Below are positions 50,504-58,486 of a stretch of DNA of 64,000 bases, piece after piece. The notes beneath the pieces were generated by a model. The model saw only the letters and a list, made by a program, of their open reading frames with translations, had not been told where the DNA came from and ran no database searches. Source of the stretch: Acidobacteriota bacterium (GTDB lineage Bacteria; Acidobacteriota; Vicinamibacteria; Vicinamibacterales; CAVVIG01); assembly GCA_003222395.1 (NCBI GenBank), contig QHWB01000030.1:234221-298220 (forward strand), in the 5' to 3' direction. How positions within the stretch are numbered: the first letter of the stretch is position 1; every line of letters starts with the position of its first letter. A program made the translations under genes and the position numbers.

Positions 50504-52036
50504 TCAGTTGATTGCCGGTTCGAGCGGCTCGCCGGGCACGGCCAGATCGGGCATGGGTCTCCCGAGGAACAGCCGCCGGCAGGCAACGCCGATCCATCGC
50601 GCCCACTGCGTCGATCGCTGGACGCGCGCGCTGTCGGTCGCGATGCCCGTGTTCGCGTACATGTGTCGGTAGAGCTTCGAGATGAGTACGAAGGCGATCC
50701 GGGCACGAACGGTTTCGACGACGCTCGATCGCGCCCAGACGTGGCGCCACCCGTAAAAGCGATCCCACGCGCGCTGGGTGCCCACTCGAATCTCCTCGAG
50801 CGACATCGTCGGATGCGCGGCGTACAGTTTCGGCCGGCGTCCTTCGGGAATGAGCCAATGCTGTGTAATCGGCACGCCGTCGACCGTCGTCCCGCGGCGG
50901 CTCTCCTCGGCAGCCCACTTGTCGAAATCGACGGTGCCGGGGAACGGCGTCAGCAGCACGAACTGTGCGAACGTCAGATCGGCCCGTTCCGCGAGCGCGA
51001 CCGTCGCGTCGAACGTGTCCTTCGTGTCACTGTTGAGCCCGAAGATGAACGAGCCGAGGACGTGGATGCCATGACGGCGAAACTCGCGCAGCCGCGCCAC
51101 GAGCTCGTCGCCGGCCAGGTTGAAGCCTTTGTAGACATCCTTGAGCCCTTCGCGGGTCACCGACTCGACGCCGACGAGCGCGCCGCGAATCTTCGCGCGC
51201 TTCATCGCGTCGAGGAATTCCGGGTCTTCGGCGGCCTCCATCGTAATCTGGGTGTAGAAGACGAGATCGTGCGGCAGCTCGGCGAGCCTCGCCATCAGCG
51301 CGAAGCGCTCGTCGCGCAGCGCCTGGAGCTCGCGCAGCCGCGAGGAATCGGCTCGGCGCCGCGCCTGCGCCAGATCGTCGAACGTGACCGGATAGAAGTT
51401 GTCGTCGGCGAGCGCGATGAATCGAAATCCGAGACGGCGCAGCTCGACGATCTCGCGGACGACGCGATCGACGCCGCGCTGGCGCGGCTCCTGTCCGTCG
51501 GTCCGCCACACGGAACAGAACGAGCAATGCTTCGGGCAGCCGCGCAGCGTCTGTACCGACGCCCACATGTACCGCCGCTCCGGAAGCAGATCCCATCGCG
51601 CCGACACGAACTGATCGCCAGCGATGCGGCCCCCTTCGTAGACCGGCCGCGGCTGTCCAGCCAGGCACTCCTCGATGACGCGCGGCCAGACGACGTCGCC
51701 GTCGCCGCGCACGACCGCGTGCGCCTGACCGTGAGTCGCGGCTTCGTCCGGAAACAGCGTGGCATGAATGCCGCCGAAGACGACCCAGGCGCCGCGCTGG
51801 CGCACCTGGCGTCCGATCTCGTAACCGCGGAGCGCGTTGCCGGTATGAATGCCGATGCCGACGACGTCGCCCGCGCAAATCGTGTCGAGATCGACCGGAT
51901 CGAGCGTTTCGTCGACGATGACCGGATCGCCCCAGCGGCTGCCGGTCGCCGCCGCGAGGACGTAGAGCCAGCGCGGCGTAATCACGGCGACGCCGAACGA
52001 TTTCACACTCGGATTGACAAGATGAATGCGCGTCAA
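50504..52036 (-). CDS. B12-binding radical SAM protein
   Basis: 510 residues. The N-terminal Rossmann-like cobalamin-binding domain (about 1-140) includes GIGIHTGNALRGYEIGRQVR and WVVFGGIHATLFPDEA. The radical SAM core has RGCPKHCSFCSV with cluster Cys167, Cys171, Cys174. A C-terminal region continues to about 490. Such enzymes methylate unactivated carbons or build secondary metabolites and lipids. The start is TTG 52036 with GAGGA 9 nt upstream; that ribosome-binding site lies in the right arm of a leader hairpin (52048-52070). The substrate is unknown. Confidence 0.88.
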   Translation of the reverse strand: MTRIHLVNPSVKSFGVAVITPRWLYVLAAATGSRWGDPVIVDETLDPVDLDTICAGDVVGIGIHTGNALRGYEIGRQVRQRGAWVVFGGIHATLFPDEAATHGQAHAVVRGDGDVVWPRVIEECLAGQPRPVYEGGRIAGDQFVSARWDLLPERRYMWASVQTLRGCPKHCSFCSVWRTDGQEPRQRGVDRVVREIVELRRLGFRFIALADDNFYPVTFDDLAQARRRADSSRLRELQALRDERFALMARLAELPHDLVFYTQITMEAAEDPEFLDAMKRAKIRGALVGVESVTREGLKDVYKGFNLAGDELVARLREFRRHGIHVLGSFIFGLNSDTKDTFDATVALAERADLTFAQFVLLTPFPGTVDFDKWAAEESRRGTTVDGVPITQHWLIPEGRRPKLYAAHPTMSLEEIRVGTQRAWDRFYGWRHVWARSSVVETVRARIAFVLISKLYRHMYANTGIATDSARVQRSTQWARWIGVACRRLFLGRPMPDLAVPGEPLEPAIN

Positions 52037-52121
52037 GTCTGGACATCCTCACAGGCAAGGGCTTTGTGAGAGCCTGGTCAGGAGTGGCCGAGCGCTCAGA
52101 AAAGCAGAAGCGGTCAGTATA
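52037..52121 (-). promoter_or_regulatory. Structured 5' leader of the radical SAM gene (putative cis-regulatory RNA, copy 1)
   Basis: On the minus strand a TATACT hexamer (52116-52121) would start a leader of about 73 nt. It ends in a hairpin with arms CUCACA and UGUGAG (52048-52070). The right arm contains the Shine-Dalgarno GUGAGGA (52046-52052), 9 nt before the TTG start. The region is homologous to 57581-57667 upstream of the omega gene (GCTTTTCTGAGC, TCGGCC and CTCAC..AAGCC blocks shared). No good -35 is visible. Ligand or trigger unknown. Confidence 0.6.
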
Positions 52122-52209
52122 CGCCGGTTCAACGCGCGCACGCGTGACGCGTACGCACGTCGAGCATGGGCATAAAGGGAAGATGACGAACGTGATGAGC
52201 ACATATGCG

Positions 52210-52800
52210 CTATCCAGCGATAGACGTCCATACAAGCGCGATCGTGAGCGCGATCATCACCGCGCTCGTGCTCCAGGCAATCACGTTAGCGACGCGTGAG
52301 TTCCTGTACGTCCCCATCAGATCTTCGCGATTGATCAGACGCAGCATGAAAAACAACACGAACGGAATCAGCACGCCGTTCGCGACCTGCGAAACGATGA
52401 TGACTTTGATCAGCGGCAATCGCGGGATGAGAACGAATCCGGCGCCCACCACGACCAGCGACGTGTACAACCAGTAGAAGATCGGCGCTTCCGAGAATTT
52501 CTTGTTGAGGCCGGATTCGAATCCGAGGCCCTCGGCGACGTTGTACGCCGTGGCGAGCGGGAGAATCGCGGCGGACAGCAGCGCGGCGTTCAACAGGCCG
52601 ATCGCGAACAGGACCGATGCGAAGCGGCCCGCCAGCGGCGCCAGCGCCACGGCGGCGTCAGCGGCATCCTTGATTTCGCGAACGCCCCGCGTGTACAGCG
52701 TCGCTCCGCAGGCGACGACGATGAAGAATGCCACGACGTCGGTGATGATGCAGCCGATGATGACATCCCATCGACTCAGCGAGTATTGGCGCGTGCTCGC
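52210..52800 (-). pseudogene. 5'-truncated NRAMP-family metal transporter
   Basis: Homology begins at QYSLSRWDVIIGCIITDVVA, in the middle of the NRAMP fold. It continues through FFIVVACGATLYTRGVREIK, LFAIGLLNAALLSAAILPLA and GLNKKFSEAPIFYWLYTSLV to the C-terminal helix. The first about 210 residues, including the metal-binding helix 1, are missing. Upstream, an in-frame stop occurs at 52810-52812 and the histidine-kinase gene ends at 52802. No start codon context is convincing. A non-functional remnant. Confidence 0.75.
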
Positions 52801-52801
52801 G

Positions 52802-54505
52802 TTACAAGTTCATAGTCTTTGACGTGATGAGCGATTCGATTGCGCGAATCAACTCCCGGGCGTCGATCGGCTTCGACAGGTGTCGATCGTAGCCGGACGC
52901 TGCGGCGCGTTCGCGATCGGCGGCGGCGGCATACGCCGTCACCGCGACCGCCGGCGTACGTCCCCCATTCTCCGCCCGGCGCATCCTCAACTGGCGGACG
53001 AGCGCGTACCCGTCTTCGTCCGGTAGCCCGATATCGCTCACGAGCACATCGGGGCGCGCCTGGTCGATGCTTGCAAGGGCCTCTCGCGCCGATGCAACCG
53101 TCGTGACCTCGGCGCCCGCCTGCTGCAGCACGGCATGGAGCACTTCGCGCGCATCACGATCGTCGTCGACGACGAGAACGTGAACGCCGCGACTGAACCT
53201 CGGAAGCGGCGTGGTCTCCACCGGTCTGCCGATGACGGCGACGGGGCGCCGCTGCTCGACGTCGGTGGCGCCAGCCGCCAGCGGAAGGACGACCGTAAAC
53301 GTCGCGCCGCGACCGATGCCGGCGCTCTCGGCCCCAATCGAGCCTCCGTGCAGCACCACGAGGTGACGCACGATCGTGAGCCCGAGTCCGATCCCGCCGT
53401 GCACCCGCGTCGTGGAGGCGTCCTGCTGGCGAAAGGGTTCGAAGATGTGCGGCAGGAACTCCGGTCTGATGCCTGACCCGGAGTCGCCGACGATCAGGGT
53501 CGCGTGGCGATCGTCGCGAGACAGACGCACCCGGATGTCGCCTCCGGGCGGCGTGAACTTGATGGCGTTGGCGATCAGGTTCGTGGCAATTCTCTGCAAC
53601 TGAAGCGAATCGCCTGCGACCAGGGCATCGTCCTGCAGCTGGACGTCGAGCCGCACCTGTTTGGCGTCGGCGCTCGGAGACAGGTTCGCGACGGCCTGGT
53701 CGATGATCGGCGCGAGCGCCAGGAGCTGCCGCTCCACCTCGCGCTGTCCGGCCACGATCTGCGAGACGTCGAGGAGGTCTTCGACCAGCCGCGTTTGTGT
53801 CCAGGCGTTGCGTTCGATGGTGTCGAGCGCGCGTGCGCGCGCGTTCTCCGTCAGATGTTCTGTACGCAGCAGCCGCGTCCAGCCCAAGATGGCGTTGAGC
53901 GGTCCGCGCAGCTCGTGCGACACCATCGCCAGGAACTCGTCCTTCGCCGCATTCGCCGCCTGCAACCGTGCTGAAAGATCGACGTGCTCGCGTGAGCGAT
54001 CGTGCTCACGTAACACGGTCTCGGCCAGCACTTTCAGCAGTTCGCCGTCGGAGGTGATGCGGGACCGCGAAGCCGGTGTCTCATGGCGGACGGCGTCCCA
54101 GACTGGCGCTTGCGGCAATCGTGCCTCGCGCGCCAGCCGCTCGATCGCCATCGGCTGGGGAAATTCGGAAAGACGGTAGCCGGCCACGGCTGCGCCGACT
54201 GTGTCGCCGTTCAGCACGAGCGCGGTCCCGAGGGCTGCCAGCGCGAACCGGTTCGTGACCACGATGGCGTTCGCGCCCCGGCGGCACCGCGCCGCGCACT
54301 CGGCGAAAAGTCCGGGATCGTGTTCGGATTCGCCAAACAGATCGAACAGTGACGTGCGATTGATCGGTCCGCAGACGAGACGTCCCTCGGCGTCGTACAA
54401 CGCTACGGTGAGCCGTGTGACGCTGCCATATTTTTCGAGCGGAGGCCGCCAGATGTCTTGCGCCCACAAGCCTGGATCGTCGCGCCGCATCCGCTCACAG
54501 GTCAC
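52802..54505 (-). CDS. Hybrid sensor histidine kinase
   Basis: About 567 residues. The N-terminal sensor resembles a PocR-type ligand-binding domain (RLTVALYDAEGRLVCGPINR, two Cys in ECAARC). Then come a HisKA helix (KDEFLAMVSHELRGPLNAIL, His197), an HATPase domain (N box NLIANAIKF, GDSGSGI, GGIGLGLTIV) and a C-terminal receiver (VVDDDRDARE, phosphoacceptor Asp491 in VSDIGLPDEDGY). No transmembrane helix, so cytoplasmic. The GTG start overlaps the stop of the response-regulator gene (GTGA at 54502-54505); ATG 54487 is an alternative. Confidence 0.9.
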   Translation of the reverse strand: MTCERMRRDDPGLWAQDIWRPPLEKYGSVTRLTVALYDAEGRLVCGPINRTSLFDLFGESEHDPGLFAECAARCRRGANAIVVTNRFALAALGTALVLNGDTVGAAVAGYRLSEFPQPMAIERLAREARLPQAPVWDAVRHETPASRSRITSDGELLKVLAETVLREHDRSREHVDLSARLQAANAAKDEFLAMVSHELRGPLNAILGWTRLLRTEHLTENARARALDTIERNAWTQTRLVEDLLDVSQIVAGQREVERQLLALAPIIDQAVANLSPSADAKQVRLDVQLQDDALVAGDSLQLQRIATNLIANAIKFTPPGGDIRVRLSRDDRHATLIVGDSGSGIRPEFLPHIFEPFRQQDASTTRVHGGIGLGLTIVRHLVVLHGGSIGAESAGIGRGATFTVVLPLAAGATDVEQRRPVAVIGRPVETTPLPRFSRGVHVLVVDDDRDAREVLHAVLQQAGAEVTTVASAREALASIDQARPDVLVSDIGLPDEDGYALVRQLRMRRAENGGRTPAVAVTAYAAAADRERAAASGYDRHLSKPIDARELIRAIESLITSKTMNL

Positions 54506-55185
54506 AGACGGCGAAGCTGCCGTGTTCGTTGACGGTACTGGAAGGTGCCGCATCCCGCATGACACTCGAACAGATCCCATTGCTCCGGATGGCTGGCGCT
54601 GACGCCGCCGACGTAGCTCCGCTGGTACTCGAGCGGCTGGTCGCACGTCGGACACACCAGCGTCGGCGGCGGGTGGGGCGGAGCGTTGGTATGGCCGCGC
54701 GCATAGGCGCGGTTCTTGGTGAGCGCGCGGCGGCCGGCGGGCGGTTGCAGGCCTGCTTCACGCTCCACAGCCGCCATGTTCGACAGATCAGGATCCGCGG
54801 CATCCATCGCCTGGTGAATCGCCATCAGCAATGCCTCGGGAAGGCATGGCTTGACCAGGAGCGCGTTGGCGCCCGCACGCTTCACGCGCTCGAGCTCGTT
54901 TGGATGCGCGCCCCCGGTCACGACCACGATCGGAATCGTCCGCGTGCCGGGATCCCGCCGCAGGAGACCGCAGAGCTGATACCCGTCGATCCCGGGTAAT
55001 CGTGTCTCAGTGACGATCACGTCGTGGTGGGACGACAGGGCCTTCGCAAGCGCTTCGCGCCCCTCGCTGGCCTCGTCGATCTCGAACCGCGCGAGCGTCA
55101 GAACCTGCGAGTACAGCTGGCGGGTATCTGCATCGTGATCGACGATGAGGGCGATGGGCGATGAGGGCAAACCCCTTGAATCCAT
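54502..55185 (-). CDS. Receiver-domain protein with Glu at the phosphoacceptor position and a zinc-ribbon-like tail
   Basis: 227 residues. The receiver fold is clear: IALIVDHDADTRQLYSQVLT, switch Thr90 in VVVTGGA, conserved Lys112 in LLVKPCLP. The phosphoacceptor, normally Asp, is Glu60 (IVTETRLPG). A C-terminal extension has CPTC (178-181) and CHAGC (208-212), a potential zinc ribbon. It is translationally coupled to the hybrid kinase downstream (GTGA overlap). ATG 55185 is chosen because it directly precedes the receiver domain. Confidence 0.85.
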   Translation of the reverse strand: MDSRGLPSSPIALIVDHDADTRQLYSQVLTLARFEIDEASEGREALAKALSSHHDVIVTETRLPGIDGYQLCGLLRRDPGTRTIPIVVVTGGAHPNELERVKRAGANALLVKPCLPEALLMAIHQAMDAADPDLSNMAAVEREAGLQPPAGRRALTKNRAYARGHTNAPPHPPPTLVCPTCDQPLEYQRSYVGGVSASHPEQWDLFECHAGCGTFQYRQRTRQLRRL

Positions 55186-55353
55186 GGGCTGCGCGCCACG
55201 TGAAACGATGGTACCCCGTGAATCGCGCCACGCCAAGCGCCATCGATCGCGCGAAGCCCGGGCGCCGCGACTGAATCGATCGAGCGGCCGGGCATTTGAT
55301 TTGGCGCCCAGAGGGGCGTAACATCCCATCTTTCGCGCAATTACAGCGTATCA

Positions 55354-55770
55354 ATGGCCAAAGGTCCTCGATTTCAACACCTGCTGACCAGCATCGGGGT
55401 CCTCCGGCACCCGTGCGATCTCGATCTTCTCCTGTTTTTTCATCGCCATCCGCATGCCCTGCTGACGAGCGACCGGCTGGCCGCGTACGTGGGGGACGAT
55501 CTCAATCAGACGGCGAGGTCGCTCGATTTGCTGACCGATGCCGGTTTCCTGAAGCGCTCCCAGAACCCGACGCACGCTGCCCGGATGTATGTTCTCCAAA
55601 CCTCCGGGACAGGGTGGCTGACATCGTTGATCGACATCGCCTCGACTCCCGACGGGCGCAAAAGCCTGCTCGATGCGATGAAAGAAGCGTCAGAGGCGGA
55701 AGCGTCGCTTGCTGAATCGACCCAATCGGATGTCCTTCGACGCACGCGCCGCCGCACGAGCGTCTCATAA
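55354..55770 (+). CDS. Winged-helix regulator-like protein preceding the KaiC-like gene
   Basis: 138 residues with a MarR/ArsR-like winged helix: DLDLLLFFHRHPHALLTSDR, LAAYVGDDLNQTARSLDLLT (recognition helix) and the wing GFLKRSQNPTHAARMYVL. The C-terminal helix contains DGRKSLLDAMKEASEAEASL and a basic tail RRTRRRTS. The KaiC-like gene begins 9 bp after its stop, so the pair is an operon. No known partner; probably regulates or works with the ATPase. Confidence 0.75.
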   Translation: MAKGPRFQHLLTSIGVLRHPCDLDLLLFFHRHPHALLTSDRLAAYVGDDLNQTARSLDLLTDAGFLKRSQNPTHAARMYVLQTSGTGWLTSLIDIASTPDGRKSLLDAMKEASEAEASLAESTQSDVLRRTRRRTSVS

Positions 55771-55779
55771 GGTGGGCTC

Positions 55780-57315
55780 ATGGCGGAATCAGATCCGGTC
55801 AAGACCGGCGTCGTCGGACTCGATGCGATTCTCGGTGGCGGGATTCCACGCGGCAACGTGATCGTCGTCGAAGGACGGGCCGGCAGTGGCAAGACGACGC
55901 TGGGGGTCGAGTTCATCTACCGGGGCGCCACCGAGTTCGGCGAGCCGGGCCTCATCGTGCTGTTCGAGGTTTCGCCGATCAAGGTGATCCGCGACGCTGC
56001 GCAGTTCGGGTGGGACCTGCCGGACCTCGAACGTCAGGGCAAGGTCAAGGTCATTTTCACGACGCGGTCGGTGCTGCAGCAGGAGCTTCAGCAGGCCGAC
56101 AGCCTGTTGCTCGCCGAAGCGGCGCGCATCGGCGCGCGGCGAATGTTCATCGATTCGCTGCCGCCGCTTCCGGTCGACGGTCTGAATGGCCACGACGGCA
56201 ACAACGGTGGCGCGCGTGAAATGTTTCATACGCTCGTGCAGGGGCTGCACCGCGAGAACCTGACGGCGATGCTCGCCGTTGAATCGCCGGGACTCGAGCG
56301 GGTTCGCCATGCCACGCCTCCGGTCGAAGAATTCATCGCGGACACACTCATCGTCGTCCGCATCGAGGACGTTCAACGCGCCGCCATTCGCTCGATCGAG
56401 ATCGCGAAATCGCGCGGCCACCATTTTCAAATGGGCAGTCATTCGTTTCGCATCGTCGACGGCCACGGCCTCGAAGTATACAAGCGGGTGCAGGCGCCGC
56501 GCAGCATGAGCCGGGAGATGGCTGCCGCGTACGACCCGACGACCCGGGTGCCGACGGGCGTGTCCGGCCTCGACGAGCTCGTGAACGGCGGCTATTTCCT
56601 CGGAAGCACGACGCTCGTGGTCGGCGTATCCGGCGTCGGCAAGAGCGTCATGGCGCTCCAGTTCATCGCCGAGGGCGCTCGACGCGGCGAGCACAGCCTC
56701 ATGTTGAGCCTGGACGAGACGCCGGCGCAGATCATGCGCAACGGCCGCACGATCGGGATCGATCTCGAACCGGATATCGCGCGCGGGGTCGTGAGGGTCC
56801 AGTACGATTCGCCCCAGGAGATCGAGATCGATCGGCACTTCGCGCAGATCGAGCGGGTCGTCGAGGAATTCAAGCCCAAGCGTGTCGTCATCGACAGCTT
56901 GTCCACGTACGGATCGACGCTCGGATCGTCGAAGCGAATCTTTCGCGATTTCTTCCACGCGCTCGTGGCGCTCATGAAAGAGCACCAGATTGCGGCGGTC
57001 TACAATCACGAGAACCCTGAGATTCTGGGCATGTCGTCGATGGCAGGCGAGTACGCGATGAGCTCGCTCGTCGACAACATCCTGCTGTTGAACTGGGTCG
57101 AGCTGAGCGACGAATTCCGGCTGGCCATCACCGTCGCGAAGATGCGGGCGAACCCGACCAAACGCGTCACGCGGGAATGTGAAGTCGTGGACGGCGAGGG
57201 GATGCGCGTCCTGCCCCGTCAGATCCCGCCTGCGGCGTTGCCGTTCAGCGCGTATTACGGCCTGGTCTCCCGCTCGCCCGAGCGTCACGCGTCGCGCGCG
57301 CCCGTTCAGGAGTGA
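55780..57315 (+). CDS. KaiC-like double RecA-fold ATPase
   Basis: 511 residues with two tandem KaiC/RecA domains. Domain 1 has Walker A GRAGSGKT (32-39) and Walker B-like RRMFIDSLPPL. Domain 2 has Walker A GVSGVGKS (282-289), the catalytic pair Asp312-Glu313 in LMLSLDETPAQ and Walker B KRVVIDSLSTYG. Each domain starts with the family signature (VKTGVVGLDAILGGG, VPTGVSGLDELVNGG). True KaiA/KaiB partners are absent. Non-cyanobacterial KaiC homologues act in stress or signalling networks, often with receiver or kinase proteins; the adjacent kinase/receiver pair is suggestive. Role unproven. Confidence 0.92.
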   Translation: MAESDPVKTGVVGLDAILGGGIPRGNVIVVEGRAGSGKTTLGVEFIYRGATEFGEPGLIVLFEVSPIKVIRDAAQFGWDLPDLERQGKVKVIFTTRSVLQQELQQADSLLLAEAARIGARRMFIDSLPPLPVDGLNGHDGNNGGAREMFHTLVQGLHRENLTAMLAVESPGLERVRHATPPVEEFIADTLIVVRIEDVQRAAIRSIEIAKSRGHHFQMGSHSFRIVDGHGLEVYKRVQAPRSMSREMAAAYDPTTRVPTGVSGLDELVNGGYFLGSTTLVVGVSGVGKSVMALQFIAEGARRGEHSLMLSLDETPAQIMRNGRTIGIDLEPDIARGVVRVQYDSPQEIEIDRHFAQIERVVEEFKPKRVVIDSLSTYGSTLGSSKRIFRDFFHALVALMKEHQIAAVYNHENPEILGMSSMAGEYAMSSLVDNILLLNWVELSDEFRLAITVAKMRANPTKRVTRECEVVDGEGMRVLPRQIPPAALPFSAYYGLVSRSPERHASRAPVQE

Positions 57316-57367
57316 CGGACATCACGAGCGGTTCGACGCGCGGGCATCCCCGCCGCCGTCGGCGCCG

Positions 57368-57580
57368 TCATCGCGCGGCCAGGTCGACGGGATTCACGAG
57401 ACGGCGAGTATCGACGTCGGACCGAACCACCTTCCGTTCGGCGATTTCGTGCTGTGCGGTGACCGCGACCTTCTGTGATTCCGCCACGCGCGGCGTGCAG
57501 CCGCGGTGCAATTGGGCCGCACGAAGAGCCGACAGCACCGAGAACTCGAACGCATTCATTCCGTCCGGACGCTTGACCAT
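57368..57580 (-). CDS. rpoZ: DNA-directed RNA polymerase omega subunit
   Basis: 70 residues with the omega core: NAFEFSVLSALRAAQLHRG followed by PRVAESQKVAVTAQHEIAE. This matches the NRFDLV-x-A-x-RA-x-Q and K-x-(T/A)V-x-A-x-x-EI pattern of RpoZ. Omega assists assembly of beta-prime and, in some bacteria, binds ppGpp. It may be a paralogue and not the housekeeping copy, because no gmk or other usual neighbour is present. GAGGG lies 9 nt before the ATG inside the right arm of a leader hairpin. It is convergent with the KaiC-like gene. Confidence 0.83.
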   Translation of the reverse strand: MVKRPDGMNAFEFSVLSALRAAQLHRGCTPRVAESQKVAVTAQHEIAERKVVRSDVDTRRLVNPVDLAAR

Positions 57581-57667
57581 GATGTGACACCCTCACAAGC
57601 CGAGGCTTTGGTGAGGGCTCAGGCCAGGGGCGGCCGAAGGCTCAGAAAAGCGGGAGACGTCAGTATA
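57581..57667 (-). promoter_or_regulatory. Structured 5' leader of rpoZ (putative cis-regulatory RNA, copy 2)
   Basis: On the minus strand, TATACT (57662-57667) is followed by a leader of about 75 nt. It ends in a strong hairpin (57590-57617) with 7-bp arms CCCUCAC and GUGAGGG and inner pairing GCC/GGC. The Shine-Dalgarno GAGGG is within the right arm, 9 nt before AUG. The 5' part contains CGCTTTTCTGAGC and TTCGGCC blocks shared with 52037-52121. The arms differ from copy 1 but still pair, which is compensatory variation. Confidence 0.6.
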
Positions 57668-57674
57668 CCCCGGT

Positions 57675-57980
57675 TCAGCGCGGCCGTCGTCGGTGTCTCA
57701 CGCGGAGCGCGCGTGCGCCGCTGACGGCATCCTCGAACAACTCGAACGTGACGGAATCGCCGACGACGAAATCGTTGAACGAGGTGCCCTCGGCGACGTC
57801 ACTCCGATGAAAGAACACCTCGCGATCGTCTGTCAGGCGGATGAACCCGTGACCCTGGCCGACGAACAGCTTGGCGATTCGGCCCGTGGACACGATTCCG
57901 TGTGCATCGGCGGGACGCTTGGCGGCGTGTCGAGCGGGTGGCGCCGCCTTCCGGACGGCGCCGTGAAACCATTCGCTCAA
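57675..57980 (-). CDS. Cold-shock-domain RNA-binding protein
   Basis: 101 residues: a short basic N-terminus, then a cold-shock domain (GRIAKLFVGQGHGFIRL). RNP1 is GHGFIRL and RNP2 is VFFHRSDV. FELFEDAVSGARALRVR completes the barrel. Acts as an RNA chaperone or translational regulator. The TTG start at 57980 lies 3 bp after the stop of the RRM gene, so the two are one transcript. The rpoZ leader begins just downstream. Confidence 0.88.
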   Translation of the reverse strand: MSEWFHGAVRKAAPPARHAAKRPADAHGIVSTGRIAKLFVGQGHGFIRLTDDREVFFHRSDVAEGTSFNDFVVGDSVTFELFEDAVSGARALRVRHRRRPR

Positions 57981-57983
57981 GTG

Positions 57984-58292
57984 TTACCAACGCGGCTCGG
58001 ACCGGCGGCGATGCGACTGGCCGCCGCCGTAACCGCCGCTCTGCGGCTTCGGACGGGCCTCGTTGACGGTGAGACTTCGCCCGCCGAGTTGAAAGGCATT
58101 CAACTCGTGGATGGCCTTCTGAGCTTCCTCGTCGGTGCTCATCTCAACGAATGCAAAACCGCGCGCGCGGCCGGTCGCCTGGTCGCGCATGACATTTACC
58201 GACTCGACCGCTCCGGCGCGTCCGAACAGCTCGTGGAGCTCGGTCTCTCCGACTTCGTACGGCAGGTTTCCCACATACAACTTCCGACTCAT
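57984..58292 (-). CDS. RRM-domain RNA-binding protein
   Basis: 102 residues: one RNA recognition motif with RNP2 KLYVGNLP near the N-terminus and RNP1 RGFAFVEM, plus a Gly/Arg/Ser-rich tail (SGGYGGGQSHRRRSE). This is the bacterial glycine-rich Rbp type, linked in cyanobacteria and others to cold response and RNA localisation. AAAGGAG lies about 7 nt before the ATG at 58292; the longer in-frame start (58313) precedes that site. Heads the RRM - cold-shock gene pair. Confidence 0.92.
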   Translation of the reverse strand: MSRKLYVGNLPYEVGETELHELFGRAGAVESVNVMRDQATGRARGFAFVEMSTDEEAQKAIHELNAFQLGGRSLTVNEARPKPQSGGYGGGQSHRRRSEPRW

Positions 58293-58486
58293 GACAGGAC
58301 TCCTTTGTCGCAATCGCGACGCTCCCGACCATCGGGATCGATGTCGGGTGGATGTCGTCTCGTAGCTGGCTGAACTTCAGGAGGAGCGAGTCAGAAGCGG
58401 CTCGTCACGCCGGAGACACCACAGTACGCGGCAAAATCCGAACCATCAGGGTAGCACGGAATCTCCAGGTACCCAAGCTCCGCGGG

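Follow-up and report, generated by a model that had tools for sequence, protein, structure and literature searches.

A conserved structured RNA upstream of otherwise unrelated genes in Vicinamibacteria, a candidate for cis-regulation

Two members of a family of structured RNAs precede the B12-binding/radical SAM gene and the omega (rpoZ)-like gene of the window (the whole 64,000-nucleotide stretch of DNA that was analysed). Members of the family share a core of conserved secondary structure with covarying base pairs, have a -10 box just upstream and a recurrent set of genes downstream and, in a subset, can by prediction form a further helix (P4) that includes the Shine-Dalgarno (SD) region. 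That the family and its core structure are real is close to certain. The family likely acts in cis on gene expression, and an earlier note that had read the two regions as a cis-regulatory RNA is supported; regulation itself, the signal and a universal sequestration of the SD sequence have not been shown.

Acidobacteriota is a dominant soil phylum, from which to our knowledge (no exhaustive search was made) few regulatory RNAs have been described. The family brings together genes that showed no link before: besides accessory omega subunits and GroES they encode cold-shock proteins, synthases of cyclic glucans, small proteins of zinc-ribbon or membrane type and a B12-radical SAM enzyme. A common leader predicts a regulon and places uncharacterised small proteins in a stress context. 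It also raises the questions of which signal so many unrelated genes could have in common and why there is an extra omega subunit.

The two leaders and their family

Leaders A (52121-52037) and B (57667-57581), both on the minus strand, lie upstream of the genes starting at 52036 and 57580, where homologous regions with a common TATACT hexamer had been described. Both parts of that description hold. The leaders are identical at 77 of 97 aligned positions (E 2e-18), their local alignment scores 85, where the best of 2000 shuffles of B scores 30, and each carries the hexamer. The coordinates of the individual elements and of the neighbouring genes are collected below.

Features of leaders A and B and of the genes beside them (window coordinates)
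Feature	Position	Strand	Basis or remark
B12-binding/radical SAM protein, 510 aa (gene A)	50504..52036	-	Pfam PF04055 E 3.4e-15; PF02310 E 4e-4, below cut-off
TTG start codon of gene A	52036	-	
Possible P4 3' arm, copy A (GUGAGG), contains Shine-Dalgarno	52047..52052	-	10 nt before TTG start
AAAGC, copy A	52065-52061	-	
Possible P4 5' arm, copy A (UCUCAC), overlaps P2 strand CUCA	52066..52071	-	weak
CTCAC, copy A	52070-52066	-	
Core of leader RNA copy A, P1-P2-P3 (GCUUUUCUGAG ... CUCACAAAGC)	52061..52107	-	covariance models R2, R3
Block GCTTTTCTGAG, copy A	52105-52095	-	
-10 box TATACT, copy A, radical SAM gene promoter	52116..52121	-	sequence
Omega (rpoZ)-like protein, 70 aa (gene B)	57368..57580	-	Pfam PF01192 E 8.6e-5, below cut-off
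ATG start codon of gene B	57580	-	
P4 3' arm, copy B (GUGAGGG), contains Shine-Dalgarno	57590..57596	-	
AAAGC, copy B	57609-57605	-	
P4 5' arm, copy B (CCCUCAC)	57611..57617	-	
Core of leader RNA copy B, P1-P2-P3	57605..57653	-	covariance model R2
Block GCTTTTCTGAG, copy B	57651-57641	-	
-10 box TATACT, copy B, rpoZ-like gene promoter	57662..57667	-	sequence
Cold-shock-domain protein, just upstream of copy B	57675..57980	-	Pfam CSD E 6.5e-7
RRM RNA-binding protein	57984..58313	-	NCBIfam NF058537 Rbp_regulator 101 bits, cut-off 100

The likeness of A and B continues for about 15 nt beyond the -10 box on the upstream side (CGCG.TGAACCGG), a stretch that the remote family members compared lack, and as judged from the sequence the two are therefore probably local copies. 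If one promoter region had recently been duplicated, without any conserved RNA, this upstream similarity would be accounted for, but such a duplication is barely credible as the whole explanation and is refuted as such by the family: a third copy lies before another rpoZ-like gene, three more are found in the same genome, and matches occur in 61 of the 162 genomes of the order. Copy A may still have arisen by duplication. The likeness of A and B is by itself no proof of selection, and it is the family that supplies this proof.

The third copy, on contig C98, was found by searching with the block CTTTTCTGAGC..TCGGCC and has an RRM gene and cold-shock genes nearby. Covariance models were built from three (R1), 28 (R2) and 89 (R3) sequences. 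Model R2 finds six copies in the genome of the window, namely A, B, the C98 copy, C1:419273 (before a zinc-ribbon gene), C54:262756 (before a gene for a protein with one transmembrane segment, here one-TM protein) and one on C117 that precedes a gene of no recurrent family. On the scale of the whole genome copy B scores 58.5 bits with R2 (E 4.5e-10) and copy A 32.8 bits (E 9.8e-4); with R3 copy A reaches 37.9 bits (E 6.2e-5). Both copies were among the sequences used to build R3, and B among the 28 used for R2. Copy A is slightly degenerate, with a 3' internal loop one base short, an imperfect P3 and a low score.

The covariance-model search proposed in the earlier note did turn up further homologues. 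With R1 (E up to 0.5) 71 of 120 relatives have matches, many of them weak, and with R2 (E up to 0.01) 60 of the 162 genomes of the order. At E up to 0.001 the final model, R3, has matches in 64 of the 193 genomes of the class, of which 61 belong to the order and three to another family of the class. At this threshold 101 of the order's 162 genomes lack a match, so the RNA is common there, not universal. Among 396 genomes drawn from the phylum, R3 (E up to 0.001) matches 20, all in the class and none outside it; R2 (E up to 0.01) matches 21, of which two weak ones outside the class (L165, L166) were left out. An exact-pattern scan gave no match in viral contigs. The record titles that it returned include Vicinamibacterales and Luteitalea, and eight of the 37 titles name other groups. 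Spread across phyla is not supported by these. Loci L093, L100 and L113 share an identical 500-nt piece with loci of genomes in the same order, and L098, L102, L116, L118 and L122 look like chance matches (about 3-4 expected by a rough estimate), as does L125 (titled Acidobacteria), which is without P3. The titles of L093, L100 and L113 (Acidimicrobiia, Bifidobacterium breve and Cyanobacteria) look wrong.

The counts given below refer to 92 members, that is 100 matches minus eight rows: two on the mirror strand (L212 +, L069 +), three weak or truncated (L165, L166, L208) and three duplicates (L124, L109, L163). The 92 include two weak matches (L144 1250 -, E 0.013; L204 1299 -, E 0.039), and the tandem copies of L082 and L144 are counted twice for the same genes. 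The set of 89 (E up to 0.0015) comes from 82 of 89 sources and leaves out L165, L166, L167, L208, L124, L109 and L163.

No known Rfam family, Acido-1 included, matches in the window or in 16 further loci, to which the scan was limited; the remaining member loci were not covered. At the gathering score Rfam 15 gives no match over the whole window and only three tRNAs in the 16 loci, and at E up to 10 nothing overlaps a core in those loci or falls within 51900-57800. This answers the comparison with Rfam, and with Acido-1 in particular, that had been suggested earlier. Going by this absence alone, the leaders would constitute an undescribed and unnamed family of structured RNAs. The open-literature matches listed for regulatory RNAs of Acidobacteria contain no description of it, and one elsewhere is possible. 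Acido-1 (RF01686) and Acido-Lenti-1 (RF01687) are also structured RNAs of Acidobacteria and gave no Rfam match here; they are listed as not cis-regulatory (Table 1, PMC2864571). The Pseudomon-groES RNA motif (RF01721) is likewise a candidate cis-regulatory structure linked to groES; its Rfam model does not match the new family, and the same source lists it for Pseudomonas only (Weinberg 2010, PMC2864571).

Structure of the core

From 5' to 3' the core reads GCUUU-YC-UGAG, a spacer, the hairpin P3, a second spacer and CUCA-YC-AAAGC. P1 (GCUUU/AAAGC) and P2 (UGAG/CUCA) enclose a 2x2 pyrimidine internal loop (YC/YC), and P3 is variable. A competition of the UGAG in the 5' part for CUCA had been proposed from A and B alone; in the family the proposal extends to GCUUU/AAAGC. 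Of the 75 members in which the internal loop could be read, 62 have CC/CC, UC/CC or CC/UC. RNAalifold applied without guidance to the MAFFT alignment A6 recovers P1, P2 and P3, differing in the position of a single P3 pair.

Covariation had been named as a check for a larger alignment, and it is present. The share of cells that pair is 97.1% in the 89 members and no more than 62.1% in controls with slid partners, and two-sided changes occur in eight of 16 pairs against 2.6 in shuffles. As the alignment had been fitted to the model, the counts from the unfitted A6 are needed alongside it: 97.0% paired and four pairs with two-sided changes against 1.4, a value of four being reached in 3 of 500 shuffles. 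Seven of the eight pairs lie in P3. P1 and P2 are nearly invariant and show almost no two-sided covariation because they are too conserved, so the covariation test is hardly informative there.

The arms of P1 and P2 form an inverted repeat beside a shared promoter and almost lack two-sided covariation, as a DNA operator or promoter element bound by a repressor would. We consider it very improbable, however, that the element is DNA and not RNA: its two half-sites differ systematically at two loop positions, the spacer is widely variable (core length 44-87 nt in the 92 members) and P3 covaries. In AAAGC, moreover, the A changes mostly to G, by a single substitution that keeps U-G pairs in 22 of 92 members as against a single A to T or C in two of 92, although A to G is also the commoner mutation. 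The CIRCE/HrcA operator, too, is an inverted repeat and stands where groES operons begin; the leader family differs from it in its variable and structured spacer, and no CIRCE-like repeat was found in the loci examined.

A hidden leader peptide was also considered and rejected. Core lengths spread over all three remainders (34, 33 and 25 members), and ATG (seven of 92 cores) and GTG (ten of 92) are both rare. Two of the three reading frames contain no stop in 76 and 84 of the 92 cores, and it is the core lengths, not stops, that argue against coding.

Promoter and genes served

Of the 92 members 52 have a perfect TATA[CA]T hexamer (6/6) in the 27 nt upstream of P1, as against only one of 276 control stretches; allowing at least 5/6 the counts are 68/92 and 9/276. 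The box ends 9-11 nt before GCUUU in 43 of the 68. From this spacing, and from general knowledge of promoters, transcription is inferred to start a few nucleotides before P1, which would place the RNA at the 5' end of the mRNA. No -35 box is detectable (mean best score 2.47 versus 2.59 in shuffles), and in 71% of 66 aligned promoters the base directly before the -10 hexamer is a G. The combination of a strong TATACT box, a G in front of it and no detectable -35 hints at a special sigma factor or an activator.

In 80 of the 92 members a gene of one of twelve recurrent families lies on the same strand no more than 1500 nt downstream of the RNA; that the two are transcribed together is inferred. 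None of 42 control loci, which were taken from the genome of the window only, has a gene of any recurrent family. The families were picked from the same hits, and the figure of 80/92 is partly a product of that choice. As their first recurrent gene 21 members have an omega-like gene, 13 an NdvB-type synthase, 12 a zinc ribbon, nine a one-TM protein, six groES and three the radical SAM family (copy A included); in the other 16 it belongs to another small family or is of cold-shock type. Gene names rest on one representative checked per family, the others being named by similarity. Thus the GroES of L188 matches Cpn10 (E 5e-34), and the synthase of L179 aligns with the solved NdvB cyclic beta-(1,2)-glucan synthase (E 2e-167); for this large synthase no Pfam family was found, the NCBIfam match is weak and below cut-off, and a GH94 domain is not shown. 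A sigma-70-type factor occurs in L204, a Crp-type regulator in L206 and an Hsp20-like ORF downstream in L209 (E 0.0014, below cut-off). The stress character of this gene set is inferred. In L160 (1501-2700, +) an apparent operon runs from the RNA through an ORF of about 110 aa, a zinc ribbon and a one-TM protein to groES, a link between the chaperonin and the small protein families.

Homologues of the radical SAM protein, 67.6-77% identical, occur in seven other RNA-bearing loci. A second radical SAM gene of this genome (G000:C1, L211:256-1752, -; 67.6% identical) adjoins the zinc-ribbon RNA copy, with a small membrane protein between them. An omega gene above the Pfam cut-off is present on another contig, at G000:C18, beside a gmk-like ORF (gmk was read by eye), and gene B is therefore an omega paralogue. 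Two further ORFs of the window were noted. In the one just upstream of leader A (52210-52734, -) only positions 217-357 of the Nramp profile match, a pattern that a gene remnant or a frame shift could explain; a KaiC-family ATPase with two matched stretches (55780-57315, +) is convergent with the rpoZ-like gene.

Pairing of the Shine-Dalgarno region and the proposed switch

In P4 the CUC of the 3' strand of P2 can pair with GAGG(G) of the SD region, so that P4 and P2, sharing bases, are mutually exclusive. A typical P4 is GCCCUC with GAGGGC, the latter containing the SD sequence. Scores of at least 16 are found in 40 of 92 members as against 7.7% with shuffled tails, and of at least 14 in 54 of 92 as against 18.0%. 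Matched changes occur in single members: GCUCUC/GAGAGC (L211), GUCCUC/GAGGAC (L183) and CCAGACUC/GGGUCUGG (L206). With their own tails the members have a mean P4 score above that of each of 2000 tail permutations, a test uncorrected for relatedness, which may explain part of the result. For the 41 non-consensus arms the values are 10.6 with their own tails, 10.1 with other non-consensus tails and 12.8 with the tails of consensus-arm members. The remaining 52 of 92 members score below 16, among them six of the seven groES-linked ones, in which the groES match begins 109-826 nt downstream. P4 is a feature of a large subset, not of all members, and is clear in B and weak in A.

The final hairpin that the earlier note saw in both leaders accordingly stands for B (score 19.5, reached by 5 of 100 shuffled tails) and is weak for A, whose score of 13.5 is no better than chance (19 of 100) and whose minimum-energy fold pairs the SD arm with a different segment. 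The note had also taken differing arms that still pair as a sign of selection for structure; this argument is weaker than it seemed, as the CTCAC/GTGAG core is the same in A and B and these two leaders by themselves give no true compensatory change. The spacing of SD sequence and start codon is indeed equal in the two leaders, but it measures 10 nt after GTGAGG, the 9 nt of the note counting one SD base more.

Predicted energies place the two states close together. P4 is favoured over P1+P2 at 37 C by a median of 1.4 kcal/mol, and in 61% of the 46 members compared, which were selected for P4; heating shifts the balance further to the SD-hiding state. Between 5 and 60 C the predicted unpaired fraction of the SD arm in the 40 P4 members goes from 0.11 to 0.09, while predicted P1 pairing drops on average from 0.35 to 0.10; at 5 C it exceeds 0.7 in 13 of the 40. 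These members too were selected for P4, there is no shuffled control, and the folding is prediction only.

We tentatively favour a default-off translational switch in the leader of stress genes, opened by an unidentified ligand or protein, though our doubts slightly outweigh our confidence; no RNA, expression or binding data exist. Transcription from the -10 TATACT box, without a recognisable -35, would at once give a structured 5'-terminal leader RNA whose core folds into P1, the YC/YC loop, P2 and P3. In P4-bearing members the CUC of the P2 3' strand would then exchange its partner for GAGG(G) of the SD region: with P4 closed the SD sequence would be hidden and translation off, with P1-P2-P3 closed it would be free and translation on. 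Folding predictions for the naked RNA of these members leave the SD arm paired whatever the temperature, and an accessibility of about 10% between 5 and 60 C points to a default-off state in need of an opener. This could be a ligand or an RNA-binding protein, as yet unidentified, that acts by binding to the nearly invariant block of P1, loop and P2. A stress-type gene set, with up to six copies of the RNA per genome, would be served in this way. The direction of control, its translational level and the need for an opener are all inferences. For copy A this reading draws more support from the family than from the copy's own sequence, and because its P4 is no better than chance our confidence is lowered.

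The same flat profile bears on temperature as the signal. An RNA thermometer, or a cold or heat thermoswitch of stress genes, would suit a gene set that includes cold-shock proteins, GroES and an Hsp20-like ORF, and two near-isoenergetic states whose balance shifts with temperature, and the drop of predicted P1 pairing on warming, which suits a cold-on switch, raises its chances; a cold-favoured P1 state is possible on these predictions. A simple melting thermometer, however, is contradicted by an SD accessibility that stays near 0.1 throughout, and the shift of the balance towards hiding the SD sequence on heating is the wrong direction for heat-shock genes. Temperature sensing by the RNA itself is in our view improbable. 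The cspA leader and the ROSE and fourU thermometers are stress-gene leaders with SD pairing and have a different sequence and fold; they differ from the present family also in that its predicted SD accessibility hardly changes with temperature.

The core, unlike P4, is universal in the family, its stem starts near the inferred 5' end of the mRNA, and the strands of P1 and P2 and the internal loop are nearly invariant in sequence. All this would fit a binding site for an RNA-binding protein, such as the neighbouring RRM or cold-shock-domain proteins, or (for the first two points) a 5'-terminal stem that stabilises the mRNA, SD pairing then being secondary in some members. An RRM homologue lies within 3 kb of eight of 92 members and a CSD homologue within 3 kb of 24 of 92. 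Against the RRM protein as binder, 84 of 92 members have no RRM homologue in the available short flank (the rest of the genomes is not covered), and a pure stabiliser would, we infer, not need such constraint on sequence. We regard this explanation as unlikely, yet as a serious contender.

The proposed switch resembles translational riboswitches that hide the SD sequence, SAM-II, preQ1 and others among them. It shares with these a compact 5' leader, a nearly invariant core and two exclusive pairings, with the SD sequence in the expression helix, although in a subset only. It differs from them in having no known ligand and in serving unrelated gene families and not one metabolic pathway. More speculatively, and in our estimate rather doubtful, the leader RNA and its -35-less TATACT promoter may form a unit that marks a stress regulon of Vicinamibacteria, a riboswitch-like stress sensor that controls, among others, an alternative omega subunit. 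If true, one RNA would couple the sensing of a signal, translation and the make-up of the transcription machinery.

Some loci carry more than one copy of the RNA. Copies lie back to back in L187, L214 and L123, and with a weaker second copy in L204 and L144. Tandem copies, an arrangement known from some riboswitches, occur on the plus strand of L082 (1400-1448 and 1504-1554, starts 104 nt apart) and of L144 (1435-1485 and 1501-1550, starts 66 nt apart).
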